A program made the position numbers and the translations under genes. From positions 496,001-560,000 of the forward strand of contig NC_007513.1 in NCBI RefSeq assembly GCF_000012505.1: a DNA stretch of 64,000 nt, written 5' to 3'. Each line of letters starts with the position of its first letter. Position 1 is the first letter of the stretch. The notes below the pieces were generated by a model that saw only the letters and a program-made list of their open reading frames with translations, did not search any database and was not told the origin of the DNA. Positions 23,225 to 53,482 of this stretch are shown piece by piece. The DNA is from Synechococcus sp. CC9902 (GTDB taxonomy: Bacteria > Cyanobacteriota > Cyanobacteriia > PCC-6307 > Cyanobiaceae).

Positions 23225-24871
<1,647 letters not shown>

Positions 24872-24997: not shown

Positions 24998-26044
24998 TCA
25001 ATCTTTTTCCTTGTTCTTTTTGATGGGTTTACTTGCTGCCAGTCGATAGAGATTTCTAGTAAGGTCAACGAGTTGTTGATTGATCTCATTCAGACTTCTG
25101 CTGTCTGAAAACTGGATTTTTTCTTCTATAAATTGTGCTCCTAGTAGTTGCTCTGTTCCCGCTTGAATTTCCTTGAAAGATTCTTCGACTGATTCGAATT
25201 CATAGCGGGTGAGTAAAAATTTTTCGGGGTTTTTACTTGGGTCTAGTTCGTAGATTAGTTTTTTGAGGGCCCCGCTATCCGTATGCTTCATCTCTTTATT
25301 AAGCATATTTTTTACTCTTGTGGTGAGATTACTTAAGGATTGGTTTGCTGCAGATAATTTAAATTCATTGATATTATTTTGGTTCAAGACTGTTCTCAAG
25401 ACAAAAGAAACAGGACCTCCTGGATATGAGGTCGCAATTTTAAAAGGATAAAAGTGGATAGAGTCTCCAAAAATGTTCAGTAGTCTTGTAATAGCGGGAA
25501 CAGTTGATGGCAGTTTCGAGCTTGCATCGTTGTGCTCCATGCTCTGGAATGTGCTTTCACTTAAGCCAATAAAGGGATGGTGTTTGCCACCTTTAATAGT
25601 TTGTTGGAGAGCAGAATTAAGATATGCATAGGGAGTACGTACTAATGCAAAAGGATGGATTTTAAATCCTTGCGCTTCGATCTCATCGACCATCCTAACA
25701 AGTGATACTTTCGGAATGAGTGGGATCCCTTCACCACTCAAAAAGATATGGCCTGTACTATTGAGCAATCTTTGAAATTCATAGATGTAACCCTCCAAGG
25801 AATTACCCTGGTCTGGCTTGCATTGATTGTGTTTGACTTTATTGTATAGATTTTTGTTTGATGGAGAGAAAATATCTCTTAGTTGTCCAGTATGGTTTGC
25901 AGAAATTTGATTCCTTTCATTTAGAAAATTTGGTGTTTCAACACCATTCTTTTCCAAAAGAGTGGAGTTGTTTCGACAAGTTAGCTGGATAGATGTTGTG
26001 GCGGTTTTATGAAAGCCAAGATGTAGAAAGCAAATTTTAGTCAT
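24998..26044 (-). CDS. Sulfotransferase-like protein 1
   Basis: A 348-residue protein starting MTKICFLHLGFHKTATTS, a sulfotransferase 5'-phosphosulfate-binding loop at residues 7-17. The 3'-phosphate signature R-x7-S appears in ALVRTPYAYLNSALQQ, about residues 133-148. The segments FLSGEG, FGDSIHFYPFK, GPVSFVL and FLLTRYE are shared with the next two proteins, so the three are paralogs. These enzymes move sulfate from PAPS to carbohydrate or other hydroxyl groups; the acceptor is unknown. No signal peptide or membrane helix is visible. Strongly AT-rich compared with groEL. The stop lies about 70 bases past the groESL terminator. Confidence 0.7.
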   Translation of the reverse strand: MTKICFLHLGFHKTATTSIQLTCRNNSTLLEKNGVETPNFLNERNQISANHTGQLRDIFSPSNKNLYNKVKHNQCKPDQGNSLEGYIYEFQRLLNSTGHIFLSGEGIPLIPKVSLVRMVDEIEAQGFKIHPFALVRTPYAYLNSALQQTIKGGKHHPFIGLSESTFQSMEHNDASSKLPSTVPAITRLLNIFGDSIHFYPFKIATSYPGGPVSFVLRTVLNQNNINEFKLSAANQSLSNLTTRVKNMLNKEMKHTDSGALKKLIYELDPSKNPEKFLLTRYEFESVEESFKEIQAGTEQLLGAQFIEEKIQFSDSRSLNEINQQLVDLTRNLYRLAASKPIKKNKEKD

Positions 26045-26146
26045 GGCTTACAAAATCTCCGCATGCAATTCTATCTCTTGACAGCGTGATCTCCTGTTTC
26101 TGCTTAAGGATCATCTACAGATTGCATCTCATAGGCATTATTCGAT

Positions 26147-27160
26147 TCATTTGATCTGAGCTATCGTCAATGATGAGACACACCCTGCAAAGGCCTTGGC
26201 GAGATAATTTGGATCTATATTTGGATCGGAAAATTGAATATTTTCTTGAACAAAGGAGTGGCCAAGTGCCTGCTCCATTCTTCGAGAGATTTTGTTATAT
26301 TGTGATTCTACAAGTTTAAACTCTTTTTCAGTTAGAAAAAATTTCTCTCCGGTTATTTGTTTTGTTTGCTCACGTATGGCAAGCATTTGAGCTCCAAATA
26401 CTTTCTTACTGATTTTTTCTCCTTTTTTTAGTTTGTTGAGGATGCATCTATTTGTTGCATTCATTAAGCGTGCCTGAAGGTTGGTAAGAGAAGGACTACT
26501 ATTTTTGAAGTCTTTTTTCAAGTGAGATGAAAGACTGGGCTTAATTTGACTTAGGAGAAAAGATACCGGGCCATCGATATGGGAGATTGCTTGTTTAAAA
26601 GAATAGAGTTGGAGATTATCTCTAAAGACATCAAAGAGTAGTTCTATTTGCTGACTTCGCTCTGGCAAGTAATTTTTGTTGTTTCCAGCTATGTGTGGAG
26701 AATATGCGTCGCCCAATCCAATTAAGCTATGAAATTTCCCGTTTTTAATTGTTTGTTGTAACGCTGAACAGGCAAAAGAGTATGGACTGCGAACCAGGCC
26801 AAAGGCTTTAATGACAAATCCATTGTCTAGAAGATCTTTTTTCAAAGTCTCTAGTTCCTCTCGTTTCATGCACGAAAAACCTTCTCCACTGAGTAGAAGA
26901 TCGTGTGTTTGCTGGAGTGACTTTTCATATTCAAGTTTGTTGAAGAGTTTTATGTTTTTTAGTTTCTTTCTTTTTATTGGCTGACATAAAAATCGTATGT
27001 TTCCTGAATGGTTCCATCGGTTCCCTTTCCTATCTTGGTATTCAAATTTTGGATAGTAAATTCCTTCTTCGATTAACTTCTCACGATTATTTCCACAACT
27101 AAGCTGGAATGATGTTGTGGCTGTCTTGTGGAAGCCTAAATGTAAATAGCAGGTTTTCAT
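26147..27160 (-). CDS. Sulfotransferase-like protein 2
   Basis: A 337-residue paralog of its downstream neighbour. The PAPS loop is LHLGFHKTATTS at residues 6-17, followed by FQLSCGNN. LLSGEGFSCM, then FGLVRSPYSFACSALQQTIKNG carries the R-x7-S signature, and GPVSFLL and FFLTEKEF complete the shared layout. Lys-rich with very low GC. 102 bases separate it from gene 1 on the same strand, so they may form one transcript. Sulfate transfer is inferred from the motifs; the acceptor is unknown. Confidence 0.7.
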   Translation of the reverse strand: MKTCYLHLGFHKTATTSFQLSCGNNREKLIEEGIYYPKFEYQDRKGNRWNHSGNIRFLCQPIKRKKLKNIKLFNKLEYEKSLQQTHDLLLSGEGFSCMKREELETLKKDLLDNGFVIKAFGLVRSPYSFACSALQQTIKNGKFHSLIGLGDAYSPHIAGNNKNYLPERSQQIELLFDVFRDNLQLYSFKQAISHIDGPVSFLLSQIKPSLSSHLKKDFKNSSPSLTNLQARLMNATNRCILNKLKKGEKISKKVFGAQMLAIREQTKQITGEKFFLTEKEFKLVESQYNKISRRMEQALGHSFVQENIQFSDPNIDPNYLAKAFAGCVSSLTIAQIK

Positions 27161-27291
27161 TTTTGATCTTCTACAAGATATACCTATTGTAGCGCGATTG
27201 GATCTTTGTCTTTATCCAGTTGTCTAGAAATCGACTAGTTACTTGATGAGACTTGATCAACCTGTTAGGTTGGATCGATTAAAGCTGAAAT

Positions 27292-28293
27292 ATGAAGACG
27301 TGTTATTTGCACCTTGGTTTGCATAAAACGGCCTCATCGTCGTTTCAGCAAACCTGTGCCGCCAACATTGCGCTCTTGCAACAAGAGCGATTGCATTATC
27401 CAATTTTTTCTTGTCCTTCTGCTAGGCCATCGAGATTAAAAATTAGTAATCATTCAGTCCCATTGAGGTCACTGTATGAGCACAATCCTGGTGAGTATCA
27501 TATTAATAAGCGTTGGAAAATTATAGATATAGATAATGCTAATTGTCAGTATCAGATGCAGTGGGATCAAGCCTTGGATTCTGATTCTTCTCTGATTATT
27601 AGCGGAGAAGGCATCTCACTCTTACCGGTCGCTGCCCTTGAGCGTCTCATGGCTGCAATCACCAGCAAAGGTTTCGCCATACAAGCTATGGCGCTTGTGC
27701 GCTCTCCTTTGGATTATGCACACTCCATTGCTCAGCAACTAATTCGAGGTGGTCAATATCTTGAGGTTGTCGGATTCGGTGACTTGCGTCGACCAACAAC
27801 AATGCCTCGGCTGACAATTCCTGATGGTTGCCGCGAGATTTCGAAGCTGTTAACTGTTTTTGGTGGAACGATTCGGTTTGCTCCTTTTTATGAGGCTTGT
27901 CAGCATCCAATGGGTCCAGTTGCCTATCTCCTTGAAGAGTTCTGCGGTTGTCAAAGCACGCGTGACTACACGTTTAAGCAAACACAGGAGTCAAAAAGTA
28001 ACCTTTGGGTTCGCTATCAAAATCAACTTAATGCAAGATGGCCAAGATTTGATCGTAAGAAACGATTGAATACCGATTATATCCAGCTGCCTGATCATTA
28101 CAACAGTTCCGGGAAATTTCTATTAACTCGGTCTGAGATTTTGTTGATCCAGAGTCAAATTGATTCCTCTAATCATAATATGAGTGGTTTGTTAGGAGAT
28201 AAGTTTGTGATGGCTCAGCCTGATTTCTCTGAAGAATTGACTTCGAATGATTTAATCAATTTGATGACTGGTTTGGCGAAAACAAATCGCTAA
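27292..28293 (+). CDS. Sulfotransferase-like protein 3
   Basis: A 333-residue third paralog, divergent from gene 2 over a 131-base promoter region. The PAPS loop is LHLGLHKTASSS at residues 6-17. IISGEGISLL and MALVRSPLDYAHSIAQQLIRGG (R-x7-S) match genes 1 and 2, as do VFGGTIRFAPF, GPVAYLLEEF and FLLTRSE. It is less AT-rich than genes 1 and 2. Its TAA stop at 28291-28293 directly abuts the stop of the convergent gene 4 with no spacer. Confidence 0.7.
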   Translation: MKTCYLHLGLHKTASSSFQQTCAANIALLQQERLHYPIFSCPSARPSRLKISNHSVPLRSLYEHNPGEYHINKRWKIIDIDNANCQYQMQWDQALDSDSSLIISGEGISLLPVAALERLMAAITSKGFAIQAMALVRSPLDYAHSIAQQLIRGGQYLEVVGFGDLRRPTTMPRLTIPDGCREISKLLTVFGGTIRFAPFYEACQHPMGPVAYLLEEFCGCQSTRDYTFKQTQESKSNLWVRYQNQLNARWPRFDRKKRLNTDYIQLPDHYNSSGKFLLTRSEILLIQSQIDSSNHNMSGLLGDKFVMAQPDFSEELTSNDLINLMTGLAKTNR

Positions 28294-29460
28294 TCACTCC
28301 TGATGATTAATTGATGTTTTGGCTTGCTCCAGTAATTTGATAAGGCGTTGTCCTTGAGGTCGATTGGCGACGGCTAGTTCAAGCAATTCAACTCTTGTAT
28401 CTGCTTCTATATCCGCAGCTTGGCTCATTTTGATGAGCTGGTCGATTGTTGTATTCGATAGGCGGTTGTGCACTGATTCACTTTGGATTGCAGTCAATAG
28501 GGTTGAGCTAATGACATCAATTGATAATTGCTCTTCTTTTCTAATCTGTTGAATCACACTCCTATCGATTTGAGCATTGTCAGTGACGATTGTGGATTGA
28601 TCTAATAAATAACTATCTGGATCAAGGTTGTCATTAATGTTTTGAATATAGTCATTATTGACTTCATAAAGTTTTAATTTGCTTCCTTCAGATAATCTAC
28701 ATTTTTGAGATTGTACTGTAGGTAGTTGCTTGACCAGGGCGTCAGACAGGCGAGCGCTAATCCAGGGAAATTTGGTATAGAAAAGTGCGTTCACTAGAGT
28801 CAGTATTGATAGTTCTTTTTGGCTCATGCTTCGGTTGACGACAACCCCACGCATGGAATTCCGTGGATATGCGTCTGGCGCTTGAAGTGCTTCGAAGATC
28901 AGTTCAGTAATCTTGCTCTTGTGTTTGGAGTAGTTAATAATTGTAGTTTTAATTTGATTTTTCTTGAGTAGATTGATTACATCTGAAGCTTTTTTGTGAT
29001 GCGACGAAATGAAATGTCTACTTCGTAAGAATTGCTCAAAGGGACGCTTCTCGCCATGCCTTTTGACACGTTGTTGATACTCCGATGAGAGCATTTCTTC
29101 AATATCTCTTACGGCGAGAAGAACATGCAGATTGAGTTCTTTTAATCTATATATTTCTTGTTCAAAGAGGGAGTCTAGATGCCAGAAAAGAGATTCTGAA
29201 CTTAGTAAGATGCTGTTGTTATTTGTCTTCTCTTGCGAGAGTCTAAACAGCTCTTTTGCGAGTGATTCTTCCGGGTTGTGCTTCCAGTTTCCAGATGTGA
29301 TGGCAAATTGAGATGCTTTTTCTCGTTCAACTATTGGTATTGGATACTCAATCTTATGCCTTAATAAATCCTCTTGTGCGATTGCAAATGCCGATTGTAT
29401 CGCAGTCGTTCCTGTTTTTCCGTGTCCTATATGTAAGTAGAACTGGGGTTTTGGCAACAT
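28294..29460 (-). CDS. Sulfotransferase-like protein 4, more diverged
   Basis: A 388-residue protein with LHIGHGKTGTTAIQ at residues 9-22, closer to the classic KTGTT sulfotransferase loop, and VRDIEEMLSSEYQQRVKRHG carrying the R-x7-S signature. ILLSSESLFWHL replaces the LSGEG element of genes 1-3. The C-terminal about 100 residues are helical and Leu/Ala-rich, with LLELAVANRPQGQRLIKLLEQA resembling a TPR-like element. It is convergent with gene 3 with no gap and divergent from gene 5. Enzymatic role inferred from motifs only. Confidence 0.65.
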   Translation of the reverse strand: MLPKPQFYLHIGHGKTGTTAIQSAFAIAQEDLLRHKIEYPIPIVEREKASQFAITSGNWKHNPEESLAKELFRLSQEKTNNNSILLSSESLFWHLDSLFEQEIYRLKELNLHVLLAVRDIEEMLSSEYQQRVKRHGEKRPFEQFLRSRHFISSHHKKASDVINLLKKNQIKTTIINYSKHKSKITELIFEALQAPDAYPRNSMRGVVVNRSMSQKELSILTLVNALFYTKFPWISARLSDALVKQLPTVQSQKCRLSEGSKLKLYEVNNDYIQNINDNLDPDSYLLDQSTIVTDNAQIDRSVIQQIRKEEQLSIDVISSTLLTAIQSESVHNRLSNTTIDQLIKMSQAADIEADTRVELLELAVANRPQGQRLIKLLEQAKTSINHQE

Positions 29461-29589
29461 ACTTTTTAACTCTCCTTTATTTTAGCATTGTTGATTGATG
29501 CGCTTGCAGTGTTTGCCTTGGTCCCTCATTGTTGTTGGGTCCTGGCTCTTGTATGCTGTCCAAATCGTGCGTGTGAAAAGGAGGGTTGA

Positions 29590-30702
29590 TTGACACGGCG
29601 GTTAGCGATCCATATTGGTGCTCAGAAGTGTGCGTCGTCTTCATTGCAGGCTTCCTTGCGTCTATTTCAGAATTCTTGCAAGGATAATTCCTTCTCTTTT
29701 GTTTTTTTAAATCCTGCTCAATTACGTTCCCTTTCAAATGCATTAACCCAGAAGACAGAATCACCTTTTCGGTATATTGACCGAATTCTTTCGGAATTGA
29801 CGGCTGATTTTTCTGTCATAAGTCATGAAATGTTAGGTAATCGTCCGGCCTTAGTGCAGGCCATCGCTCGACGGGCTGTTAAACATCATGGTTTTGAGCA
29901 TATTGTTGTTGTTGGCTACACCAGGCTTCAATCGAGTTATCACGTCTCTGCCTTCAAGCAATGGTTTTTTCGTGATCGAAAGAAGCTGCGTGAAGATATA
30001 GCTGTTTTAAAAAATTATGATTTATCTTGGCGCAAGTTTTCAGCACTTGAGCGCAGTCTTTTAGCTTTGGCCTTGGTTGGAAAGGATCGAAGCTGGCATG
30101 CTAATTACAAAAAGTTTGCAGCCGGATGCACTGGTTTGTCCCCACAAATGACTTTGGCTTCAAACCATATTCCTACCAAGCAAAATCCTTATATGCTTCT
30201 TGAGGATTTTTTCAAGTTATCTGGTTTTGAGTGTAGGGATGATCTTTCAGTATTTGATGTCCGTAAAAATGTTTCGTTCCATCCTGCCGTTGTTCATGCT
30301 CTTTCTTCGCATTTCAGTTCGCTTGGGCCGCGTCTAAGTTGTTTCCCAGGCCCCCATGAAGGTAATCGTTGGTTGTTTCGAGTTTGCAAGCGTTTGGGCG
30401 ATGCCTGTGTGAACTTGCCCAGGGAAAATGATGTATTTGCCGAAGAGCTCTGTGAATCGATTGTGCACTATCTTGACCGACGCAACTATCCTGCCAATCA
30501 AGATTACTGTCAGTTAATGTCTGTTAATCAGAGTTATTTTGAGCCGGTAAACAATGTAAAAGCGATGTCAAGTGCGGATGATTTGGTTCGCAAAGCGCGT
30601 GATATTGAGAGCAAGCGTTCGCAGAAGGATATTGATGATTTTCTTTTATTGTCTGAGAATGCATTTATGAACGCCGCTCGATCTGAAATTATCAGTACAT
30701 AG
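29590..30702 (+). CDS. Sulfotransferase-like protein 5, most diverged
   Basis: A 370-residue protein. The TTG start at 29590 is supported by the strong ribosome site AAAAGGAGGG at 29576-29585. The N-terminal loop is IHIGAQKCASSSLQ, with the key Lys kept but the surrounding residues changed. VVGYTRLQSSYHVSAFKQWF keeps R-x7-S. The rest has no visible similarity to genes 1-4, so it may act on a different acceptor. It ends 20 bases from the convergent secG. Confidence 0.6.
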   Translation: MTRRLAIHIGAQKCASSSLQASLRLFQNSCKDNSFSFVFLNPAQLRSLSNALTQKTESPFRYIDRILSELTADFSVISHEMLGNRPALVQAIARRAVKHHGFEHIVVVGYTRLQSSYHVSAFKQWFFRDRKKLREDIAVLKNYDLSWRKFSALERSLLALALVGKDRSWHANYKKFAAGCTGLSPQMTLASNHIPTKQNPYMLLEDFFKLSGFECRDDLSVFDVRKNVSFHPAVVHALSSHFSSLGPRLSCFPGPHEGNRWLFRVCKRLGDACVNLPRENDVFAEELCESIVHYLDRRNYPANQDYCQLMSVNQSYFEPVNNVKAMSSADDLVRKARDIESKRSQKDIDDFLLLSENAFMNAARSEIIST

Positions 30703-30721: not shown

Positions 30722-30955
30722 TTAATTCAGCCAACCTGCGCTCAAGATAACCGCCAAACTTAAAAAGATCGCCAGGCAGGTCCAGGTAAATCTGTTCAAG
30801 GTGGCTTCTGCACTACTTGCACTGCTGAACATGGAACTTCCACTGGCTGCAAGTCCCCCCATTCCATCGCCTTTTGGACTGTGGAGGAGCACTAAAGCGA
30901 TGAGCAGCACACCGCTGCCGATCCACGTCCAAGACAGAATTGAGTTGAGCATCAT
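30722..30955 (-). CDS. secG: Preprotein translocase subunit SecG
   Basis: A 77-residue two-helix protein of the SecYEG channel. The first helix (ILSWTWIGSGVLLIALVLLHS), the loop PKGDGMGGLAASGSSMF and the second helix (FTWTCLAIFLSLAVILSAGWL) are typical. The start shares its first base with the stop of gpmI upstream, so the two are translationally coupled. Confidence 0.95.
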   Translation of the reverse strand: MMLNSILSWTWIGSGVLLIALVLLHSPKGDGMGGLAASGSSMFSSASSAEATLNRFTWTCLAIFLSLAVILSAGWLN

Positions 30956-40142: not shown

Positions 40143-40214
40143 TGGGCGATACTGGATTTGAACCAGTGACTTCTACAATGTCAATGTAGCGCTCTACCCC
40201 TGAGCTAATCGCCC
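40143..40214 (-). tRNA. tRNA-Val (GAC)
   Basis: A complete cloverleaf on the minus strand: acceptor GGGCGAT/ATCGCCC, D-stem GCTC/GAGC, anticodon stem CTACA/TGTAG with loop TTGACAT (anticodon GAC) and T-stem ACTGG/CCAGT with TTCAAAT. The discriminator is A and CCA is not encoded. No integrase or repeat flanks it. Confidence 0.95.
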
Positions 40215-49503: not shown

Positions 49504-49777
49504 CGCATGCGTTCTTTAGTGATGGTCTCGCTGCCAGCGGGACAAGCTCGCTGAAGAAAATTTGTGGCCATGTTTCGCGGCCACCTTCAAGACACAGCTG
49601 TTGTCATCACCGCAGTGTTGGATTTCGGAGCGCAGCGAGTCGTTGCTTTGCACTCGAGACATGAACGACACCAATTGCTTCATCGACATAGCGACTCCAG
49701 ATGGGACCCCACCGGCCTAGCCAGGTGGTCTGTTGGGGTTCGCTAACAAAAGGTTTGGTGCTGATTTGCTGACTTAA

Positions 49778-49993
49778 TTAGTTGTACTCGCCTGGAGTCT
49801 CTTGCTTCGACACGGTGACACGACCCACTTTTTTCCCAGAGAAACGGAGTAATTCGTCACCAGAGAACTCGAAACCGATCGAGCTGCCGATTTTTGCGAC
49901 ATCGTCCGCCGTTGATGCCGACAGCACGTTTTGCTTCAGCGACGCATCGTTTTGCATTTTGAGGAGAAAGGCCTTCAGCTGGTCAAGAGCCAT
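49778..49993 (-). CDS. Nif11 domain protein, no modifiable core
   Basis: A 71-residue Nif11 domain protein: LDQLKAFLLKMQNDASLKQNVLSASTADDVAKIGSSIGFEFSGDEL is the family pattern seen across the first 50 residues. Nif11 domains serve as leader peptides of prochlorosin-type lanthipeptides in marine cyanobacteria, but here the remainder (RFSGKKVGRVTVSKQETPGEYN) has no Cys and no clear Gly-Gly or Gly-Ala cleavage site. No lanthionine synthetase gene is in the window. It may be an orphan or regulatory protein. Confidence 0.85.
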   Translation of the reverse strand: MALDQLKAFLLKMQNDASLKQNVLSASTADDVAKIGSSIGFEFSGDELLRFSGKKVGRVTVSKQETPGEYN

Positions 49994-51898: not shown

Positions 51899-52143
51899 TA
51901 AATCAAGCAATGATCATCATATTTAATTCCTAGGCCCTGGATTTGGCGGCTTCATGCATTTTGAGTTGGATTGCATCTTGATGCTTGATCAGTATTTGGA
52001 TCGCAATGGTGATAGTCATTGTTTTGTTATGTGGTCGAGAAGATTTGCATCTTCGCGATGGGACTGTTTTAGTTTGATCTAAAGAAGTATCACATTGCTC
52101 TTGTCTATTGTTTGCGGATCGAGCAGAAAGGAAGGAGTTAAGA

Positions 52144-52398
52144 GTGCGGATCATGTCTTTCACGCGCAATCGCTCCCAGTCCAGCCATAGCCCTAACGTC
52201 AATCCTCGTGCATTGCAAATGCACCTACAGGGAGCCCAAGATGCCTTGTCAGCCTTTGATGGATATCACTCTTCTGGTCCAGCGCTTCAGCCTTCGGTGT
52301 TGGAACGACCCGCTGGATTCCAACGGCTAACTGTTCTCCAGCAGTTGTTGCAGAGGGGACGCGGCTTTATTTCCTCGATTGTTGAAGCCTTTCGATGA
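52144..52398 (+). CDS. Hypothetical protein, 84 residues
   Basis: GTG at 52144 is preceded by AAGGAG (52132-52137) at an ideal distance. The product is Ser/Gln-rich at the N-terminus (MSFTRNRSQSSHSPNVNP) with helices (LQMHLQGAQDALSAFDGY, LTVLQQLLQRGRGFISSIVEAF). No family recognised. The 244 bases after it are AT-rich and hold no convincing gene. Confidence 0.55.
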   Translation: MRIMSFTRNRSQSSHSPNVNPRALQMHLQGAQDALSAFDGYHSSGPALQPSVLERPAGFQRLTVLQQLLQRGRGFISSIVEAFR

Positions 52399-52642
52399 TC
52401 GCGCATTTATCAATATTGTCGTGCATGACTCACTTGTTTGGTTGGTGCATGTGAGTTGGCAGGGGGTATCAACGAATCTGGCTGGACTTAGATATCAAGA
52501 ATCAGCAGCTCTGGTTGTGCTCACAAAGCCCCTTATGGCTAGGTTGGACGACCAGCTCATCTGCAGTATGGCTAAATAGTGCAATTCTGCTTTTAATGTT
52601 CCAATCTAGAGTAATGTTAGTCATTAGCAAAATTAAACCTAC

Positions 52643-53109
52643 GTGCAAAGAAAATCAATATTCAAGGATTTGCTTGCATCGATTCTTGTCGTATTGCGAT
52701 GGCTTCTTTGGGTGGCAATAGGTGCAAATATTGCCATTGAAATTGCTGAAGTGTATCTCCAGAAGGATGTATATCATTTAGCGATATCGGCCATCTTTTT
52801 TCTGCTAGCGAATATGCAAATCGGGATTAGTAGGTTGTTGATCAGTATGGATGACGAGGAAATGTCAAGACGCTTTTTTACCTGTCTATTGTGATGTTGT
52901 GTGCTGCTGTTATTGCAGTCTTTGATATGGGAATCGATAGGATTTTGGCTGAGATGGCTTCAAGTCAGTTTGTGTTCTCATATAAGCTTTTGTCGATTGC
53001 TGAGTTTTTGCTTGGGTCTATTTCAACACTATTGGCGGGATACTCATTGGATCGATTTTTTGTATTGATCAGGAGGAAAGTTTTAGATCTTGTAGACGTA
53101 AAAATTTAA
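52643..53109 (+). pseudogene. Four-helix membrane protein split by a frameshift
   Basis: Two overlapping frames, 52643-52894 and 52891-53109, join into one coherent membrane protein of about 155 residues if one base is gained in the run of six T at 52874-52879: ...MSRRFF then YLSIVMLCAAVIAVFDMG. The joined product has four hydrophobic segments (two in each part). Possibilities are a decayed gene, programmed slippage at the T-run, or a sequence error. No family recognised; AT-rich. Confidence 0.5.
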
Positions 53110-53482
53110 AGACTTGTCGACGCACTAAGGTGATAGGGATTCTGTTTTTGGATAAGAAAAAGAGCCCGCCATTCTCTGTTGGGATGGTCGTATCGGTGCT
53201 GACTATTGAATTGCACGGCCTTTTTCTATGTCGGTACTATCACTCGTGTCGTTGTTTCAGTTGTCTGGCATGTCTGCATGAATATGTTTCGGCGAACGAG
53301 AGTGTGGACTATCAAAAAGAAATTGATGGGATTATTTTTTAGTTTTGTTGATCTAGTAATTTTAACGTCGGGATGTATTTATGTCTGTAAAAGTGTCTAA
53401 ACTTTGCCGAGACTTGTCTTGGGTAATGGTCGAATTAAAGAGCAATTGAAAATGGTTATTTCAGCCTACTGATGCTGAATTT
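53110..53482. other. AT-rich stretch, no clear gene
   Basis: Two short overlapping plus-strand frames (53130-53342, 53206-53400) have no ribosome site and mixed composition; the second has membrane-like stretches. They may be remnants of the same decayed membrane protein region. No RNA or repeat is seen. Confidence 0.5.

Follow-up and report, generated by a model that had tools for sequence, protein, structure and literature searches.

The xss cluster of Synechocystis 6803 makes the sulfated polysaccharide synechan, and the survey reported in the accessible part of its description used three Pfam models, PF00685, PF03567 and PF13469 (PMC8205485). The literature that we found says little about the sulfation of picocyanobacterial surfaces. 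We analysed a stretch of 64,000 nucleotides (the window), positions 496001-560000 of the 2.23-Mb single-contig genome of Synechococcus sp. CC9902, in which the interval between groEL and secG is filled by five open reading frames (ORFs), A to E, at 24998-30702, each encoding 333-388 amino acids (aa). None of the five proteins was matched by the three models above. We estimate a probability of roughly 60% that A-E are cytosolic sulfotransferases dependent on 3'-phosphoadenosine 5'-phosphosulfate (PAPS), most likely for the sugars of envelope glycans, and that the groEL-secG junction is a variable slot of the genus.

Relatives from the genus were aligned for the A/B/C type (alignment A1, 15 rows), the D type (A2, 15 rows) and the E type (A3, 13 rows); two further sets were a widened E family (A8) and a bridging set of 14 distant relatives (A9). 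The interval and its flanks are organized as follows.

23237-24871, plus strand: groEL, the left core flank; in other genera the groEL-secG neighbourhood is kept in 103/104
24998-26044, minus strand: gene A, sulfotransferase-like, 348 aa; in alignment A1, with an orthologue clade in the tree
26147-27160, minus strand: gene B, sulfotransferase-like, 337 aa; modelled with AlphaFold2 (AF2), sulfotransferase matches in VIA-align, Foldseek not significant
27292-28293, plus strand: gene C, sulfotransferase-like, 333 aa; in A1, orthologue clade with support 100/100
28294-29460, minus strand: gene D, sulfotransferase-like, 388 aa; in A2, hhalign 95% to A1 and 99.7% to A9
29590-30702, plus strand: gene E, the most diverged member, 370 aa; in A3, hhalign 99.1% between A8 and A9 over 216 columns
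30722-30955, minus strand: secG, the right core flank, converging with groEL

All five proteins carry an HxGxxK(T/C) loop near their start, which the original prediction had read as a PAPS-loop variant, and H-x-G-x-x-K is invariant in A1, A2 and A3. The same holds for S-x-E, about 65-80 residues past the loop lysine, a motif that was not named in that prediction; its invariant glutamate presumably comes after the strand where SULTs carry their histidine. The prediction had also given each protein an R-x7-S signature. The string alone is weak evidence because 2-3 such strings occur per window protein, and conservation is what counts. One R-x7-S per family is indeed conserved, its arginine being residue 112-137 in the window proteins: R124/S132 is invariant in the A/B/C type (15/15 rows), S126 of the D type is found in 15/15 rows and R118 in 14/15 (the remaining row has X), and R112/S120 of the E type is found in 13/13. 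The division into three paralogs and two diverged genes was borne out, as A, B and C share 30-36% identity and the D and E of the window had no BLAST match to A-C at 1e-4, while D-type proteins of several other strains match B weakly, with 8e-7 at best. A-E appear to form sulfotransferase-like families that lie outside the Pfam sulfotransferase models.

The fold was examined for gene B, whose AF2 model (11 sequences) had a predicted local distance difference test score (pLDDT) of 85 and a predicted template modelling score (pTM) of 0.84. In this model, the loop lies between strand 2-7 and helix 15-24, R124 comes directly after strand 115-123 and S132 is within helix 126-139; B is the only protein for which R-x7-S was located within the fold. 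VIA-align, used as a second look at the candidates of Foldseek, showed 50 rows, and rows 1-33 were all sulfotransferases, including every one of the 24 rows with Z of at least 8. The top matches among the chains listed were NDST1, 3rnl and 3-OST at Z 10.4-11.7, and NDST1 reached Z 11.7 with 221 residues aligned at 4.0 A. The first listed chain that was not a sulfotransferase came in row 34 at Z 7.4, level with row 33. The model therefore points to a sulfotransferase fold in gene B, such as had been predicted, on the strength of VIA-align and not of Foldseek alone.

Genes D and E were connected with the others through profiles. The hhalign probability was 95% between A1 and A2, and the bridging set A9 reached 99.1% with A8, 99.7% with A1 and 99.7% with A2, over 214-237 columns that included the three motifs. 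Because A9 bridges A8, A1 and A2, the kinship of D and E with the superfamily is a transitive one between profiles, and they probably belong to it through these bridging proteins. Some A9 members matched Pfam sulfotransferase models weakly and below the cut-off, namely Sulfotransfer_1 (L121, E 0.028; L126, 0.0076), Sulfotransfer_3 (L122, E 0.11) and Sulfotransfer_4 (L123, E 4e-4, 20.7 of 22.8 bits; L155, E 0.01), and the remaining members scanned with Pfam had no match to a sulfotransferase model.

The groEL-secG interval is a variable genomic slot, with constant flanks and contents that differ among strains. Among the 34 genomes of the genus, 26 had both flanks on one contig, three had them on two contigs and five lacked a match to one flank; two of the three split genomes (G009 and G026) were partly read, both with members, and the third (G032) was left out of the scan. 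As the original prediction had anticipated, the interval is polymorphic: the gap between the flanks ranged from 849 to 14181 bp across the 26 contiguous genomes. At least one sulfotransferase-like gene was present in 22 of these 26 intervals, a count in which D- and E-type genes and a Sulfotransfer_3 match below the cut-off in G016 (24.1 of 27 bits) were included. The other four (G003, G012, G027 and G028) had no such gene and held just a small gene of the ribbon-helix-helix (RHH) type, and a conserved core position in all strains is thereby ruled out. This small gene follows groEL in many strains (L081:3913-4290 and 14 relatives), is absent from the window and is present in some other genera too; the one copy scanned gave 17.7 of 23.4 bits with RHH_9.

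Counted over the 26 genomes and the parts of G009 and G026, D was found in 15, the E type in 13, the A/B/C type in 8 and a further gene, F, in 7. F encodes a protein of about 470 aa, with 62-89% identity to the first row of its alignment (L097:2446-3846, L105:2940-4349 and five more), and the member scanned (L105) had no Pfam match. Intervals without the A-E types contained Sulfotransfer_1 (G004, G005 and G006), together with Sulfotransfer_3 in G004 and G005, Sulfotransfer_2 (G020), Sulfotransfer_4 (G015) or the above-mentioned Sulfotransfer_3 match below the cut-off (G016), and G011 had a Sulfotransfer_2 gene in addition to A-E types. GT92, GT61 or methyltransferase genes were also present in some of the intervals. 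The arrangement is ordered. In all 10 genomes with both D and E, D lies on the left on the minus strand and E is on the plus strand, and C (6 genomes) and F (7 genomes) each lie directly left of D, never both; this mutual exclusion may be explained by shared ancestry.

The genes of the interval are old, mostly maintained, and differentially lost or kept. In the tree, A, B and C formed separate clades with support of 100/98, 99/98 and 100/100 across strains, which rules out a recent tandem duplication; the description of these genes as tandem is slightly misleading, since A, B and C represent orthologue groups of long standing. The ratio of nonsynonymous to synonymous substitution rates (dN/dS) lay between 0.07 and 0.24 for seven gene pairs, of which three were of D, two of E and one each of A and F, with B left out, although the synonymous rate (dS) was at least 1.4 in 4 of these 7 pairs, and the C pair (G022/G033) had an infinite, saturated dS and gave no ratio. 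The tested A, D, E and F pairs are under purifying selection, and decaying or chance ORFs are ruled out for them by these values. Gene C of G013 carries an in-frame stop. Searches of viral contigs found no relatives with the A3 profile, five distant ones with A1 and two distant ones with A2, and we rejected phage cargo as the source of the genes for this reason.

In other genera, 119 genomes were searched, and 104 had groEL and secG on one contig, within 20 kb of each other in 103 and as close as 73 bp. We read 39 of these 103 intervals, comprising all 31 above 1.8 kb and 8 shorter ones. Their contents included ammonium transporter, MsrB (SelR), radical-SAM, PPK2, MscL and permease genes, the ammonium transporter and MsrB being common (e.g., L176, L177 and L182), and one genome (L158) has a resolvase domain in its slot. 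A scan for the loop motif, which misses genes of the Sulfotransfer_2/3/4 type and overlooked those of G015, G016 and G020, matched none of the 39 intervals, and its sole match (L195) was not such an interval. Six-frame searches of the intervals of these 39 genomes with the A1, A2, A3 and A9 profiles, which do recover the intervals of the genus, gave a best E of 0.73. PF13469 matched 30/39 and PF03567 18/39 of the genomes, with none among the places listed inside the interval, PF00685 and PF17784 not being part of this search; none of 17 ORFs from these intervals compared with Pfam was a sulfotransferase. Therefore, the filling with sulfotransferases is a feature of the genus in this sample. 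Among 300 genomes sampled from the family, 22 had a match to the E profile, and 14 of these belong to the genus.

Clues to function come from the neighbours of relatives. One relative in G015 (L118) is surrounded by genes for a glycosyltransferase, WcbI, GDP-mannose dehydratase, SIS, a GHMP kinase, HAD and a nucleotidyltransferase, a set that we take to be the make-up of a heptose pathway. A relative in G005 (L119) adjoins GT4, and those of L121 and L124 adjoin WbsX. In the genome of the window itself, at 470-474 kb, an HxGLHKTGST protein has NeuB on one side and, on the other, a Sulfotransfer_2 gene that scores 134 bits (L114:71-3543), and trios like this one, judged from sequence starts, were seen in L020 and L032. 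By sequence starts, no glycan-type neighbours were found in L113, L116 and L117. On a viral contig (L126:1458-3837), adenosine 5'-phosphosulfate (APS) kinase (PF01583, 1e-52), Sulfotransfer_2 (2e-9) and a D-like gene stand in a row; this row is a direct tie to PAPS and is possibly a phage sulfation cassette. The A-E proteins start directly with the first strand and so show no leader, and we therefore infer a cytosolic site and an action on precursors before export. The original idea that a surface glycan may be sulfated gains support from the neighbour genes of relatives.

We suggest that A-E would belong to a bacterial superfamily largely missed by the Pfam sulfotransferase models, that they probably use PAPS, and that they most likely sulfate the sugars of envelope glycan precursors ahead of export. 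In the genus, the convergent groEL-secG junction may have turned into a slot stocked with sulfotransferases and other glycan modifiers, such that strains would carry different sets of sulfation enzymes and differ in surface sulfation. Selection by phages or grazers might lie behind this variation. One could go further and regard the interval as a dedicated 'sulfotype' locus, in which alternative, ordered and Pfam-invisible sets set surface sulfation and the recognition by phages and grazers in a serotype-like manner; we offer this only tentatively, well short of even odds.

Several results weigh against sulfotransferases at this locus. The domain check proposed with the original prediction failed for all five proteins: Sulfotransfer_1, _2, _3 and _4 of Pfam gave no match at E<=10, where the filters of HMMER discard most matches above about E 0.1. 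Pfam, NCBIfam and PHROG gave nothing meaningful for A-E (the best, E 0.0088, was a PHROG of unknown function), and no meaningful match among PDB sequences was found for B or E singly or for the A1, A2 and A3 profiles. With Foldseek alone, no match of the B model reached E<=0.001; zeta toxins and other P-loop proteins headed its list, and 3-OST-3 stood at rank 15. The AF2 model of E, built from two sequences, had a pLDDT of 41.6, too low for its fold to be read. The direct profile links between the A/B/C and E types were weak (A1 with A3 4%, A8 with A1 10%), the 80% between A2 and A3 concerned the loop alone, and A9 was assembled from proteins found via A1, A2 or A3, so the kinship is transitive and not an independent proof. 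No glycan polymerase or exporter genes are present in the groEL-secG interval of the window. The broad definition behind the 22 intervals belongs here as well, and the genomes of the genus share ancestry, so the counts are not independent.

The alternative that fares best is that of an ordinary accessory slot, whose bias to sulfotransferases mirrors the richness of such genes in the variable slots of the genus. Sulfotransfer_3 matches occur genome-wide, at 1-11 per genome in 33 of the 34 genomes, and glycan genes abound in the islands of marine Synechococcus according to the accessible part of their description (PMC2441476). However, all 22 contiguous intervals with a gene beyond the RHH type hold at least one sulfotransferase-like gene, in a count confined to the groEL-secG slot, and the order and strands of D and E are kept in every genome with both. 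We regard this explanation as possible, with the balance leaning clearly to the other side.

It is also conceivable that A-E are sulfotransferases acting on proteins, lipids or small metabolites and not on surface sugars. The fold alone is silent on the substrate. The B model is also matched, at Z 7-9, by StaL, SULT and tyrosylprotein sulfotransferases, and 3rnl, a bacterial sulfotransferase whose title is silent on substrate, ties with NDST1 and 3-OST. Nevertheless, these last two carbohydrate enzymes are among the best rows, and glycosyltransferase and sugar genes are found in several intervals and beside relatives. A non-sugar substrate thus seems unlikely to us, and envelope sugars remain our preferred substrate. 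That A-E are P-loop phosphotransferases (kinases or zeta-toxin-like) with a loop merely resembling a PAPS site is very improbable, because PezT/zeta toxins, which top the Foldseek ranks for B (best E 1.5e-3), reach a query TM score of 0.26-0.30, below the 0.44 that 3-OST-3 has in that ranking, the leading VIA-align rows belong to sulfotransferases, R-x7-S is conserved in all three alignments, and the HxGxxK(T/C) loop, as we understand it, differs from the Walker A pattern.

The five genes are AT-rich and lie between groEL and secG at the coordinates originally given. Their G+C content (GC) is 0.37-0.43, and the four flanking genes for which it was determined have 0.51-0.57; at third codon positions (GC3) the respective values are 0.33-0.39 and 0.57-0.65. 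The strand order is -,-,+,-,+, with C and D adjoining tail to tail, and E starts with TTG preceded by AGGAGG. Beyond A-E, the ORFs of the interval are all short or overlapping; judged by eye, none of them resembles an integrase, and the sole tRNA of the window is at 40143. The slot therefore lacks the integrase, transposase or tRNA that would mark the edge of a mobile element or a tRNA-integrated island. No known RNA besides this tRNA was found in 15700-54000. All five genes are also carried by the relative Synechococcus sp. MED650. Elsewhere in the window, the stretch 51930-53482 is AT-rich (GC 0.44 at 52-53 kb), without an ORF above 100 aa or an Rfam match, and a minus-strand pair of short ORFs at 49516-49993 resembles, we assume, Nif11-type peptides.

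If our reading is correct, one short interval with constant flanks could be read in any strain, compared with phage host range and deleted as a block, and the slot may help to determine the surface that each strain presents to viruses and grazers. Surveys based on Pfam would miss genes such as A-E. The matches listed in our literature search held nothing on a variable groEL-secG interval or on sulfotransferases in marine Synechococcus islands. Those islands, in the accessible part of their description, resemble the slot in their variable glycan-related content, suggested for the avoidance of grazers and phages, and differ in that sulfotransferase, groEL and secG occurred 0 times in a word search of the main text (PMC2441476). 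The xss cluster, as far as the accessible part of its description goes, likewise combines cyanobacterial sulfotransferases of two distinct subfamilies per cluster, but it has glycosyltransferases and Wzx/Wzy export genes, whereas A-E stand alone between core genes (PMC8205485). Members of Sulfotransfer_1/2/3/4 occupy the same interval in other strains and some bridging proteins fall below their cut-offs, although the five window proteins themselves stay outside these models. The heparan sulfate sulfotransferases (the NDST1 domain and 3-OST) are, with 3rnl, among the top fold matches of B, sharing the strand-loop-helix and the strand-Arg-helix-Ser, but with 10-12% identity and no sequence match. 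The chemistry itself is not new; the new elements are the families missed by Pfam and the fixed yet variable address.

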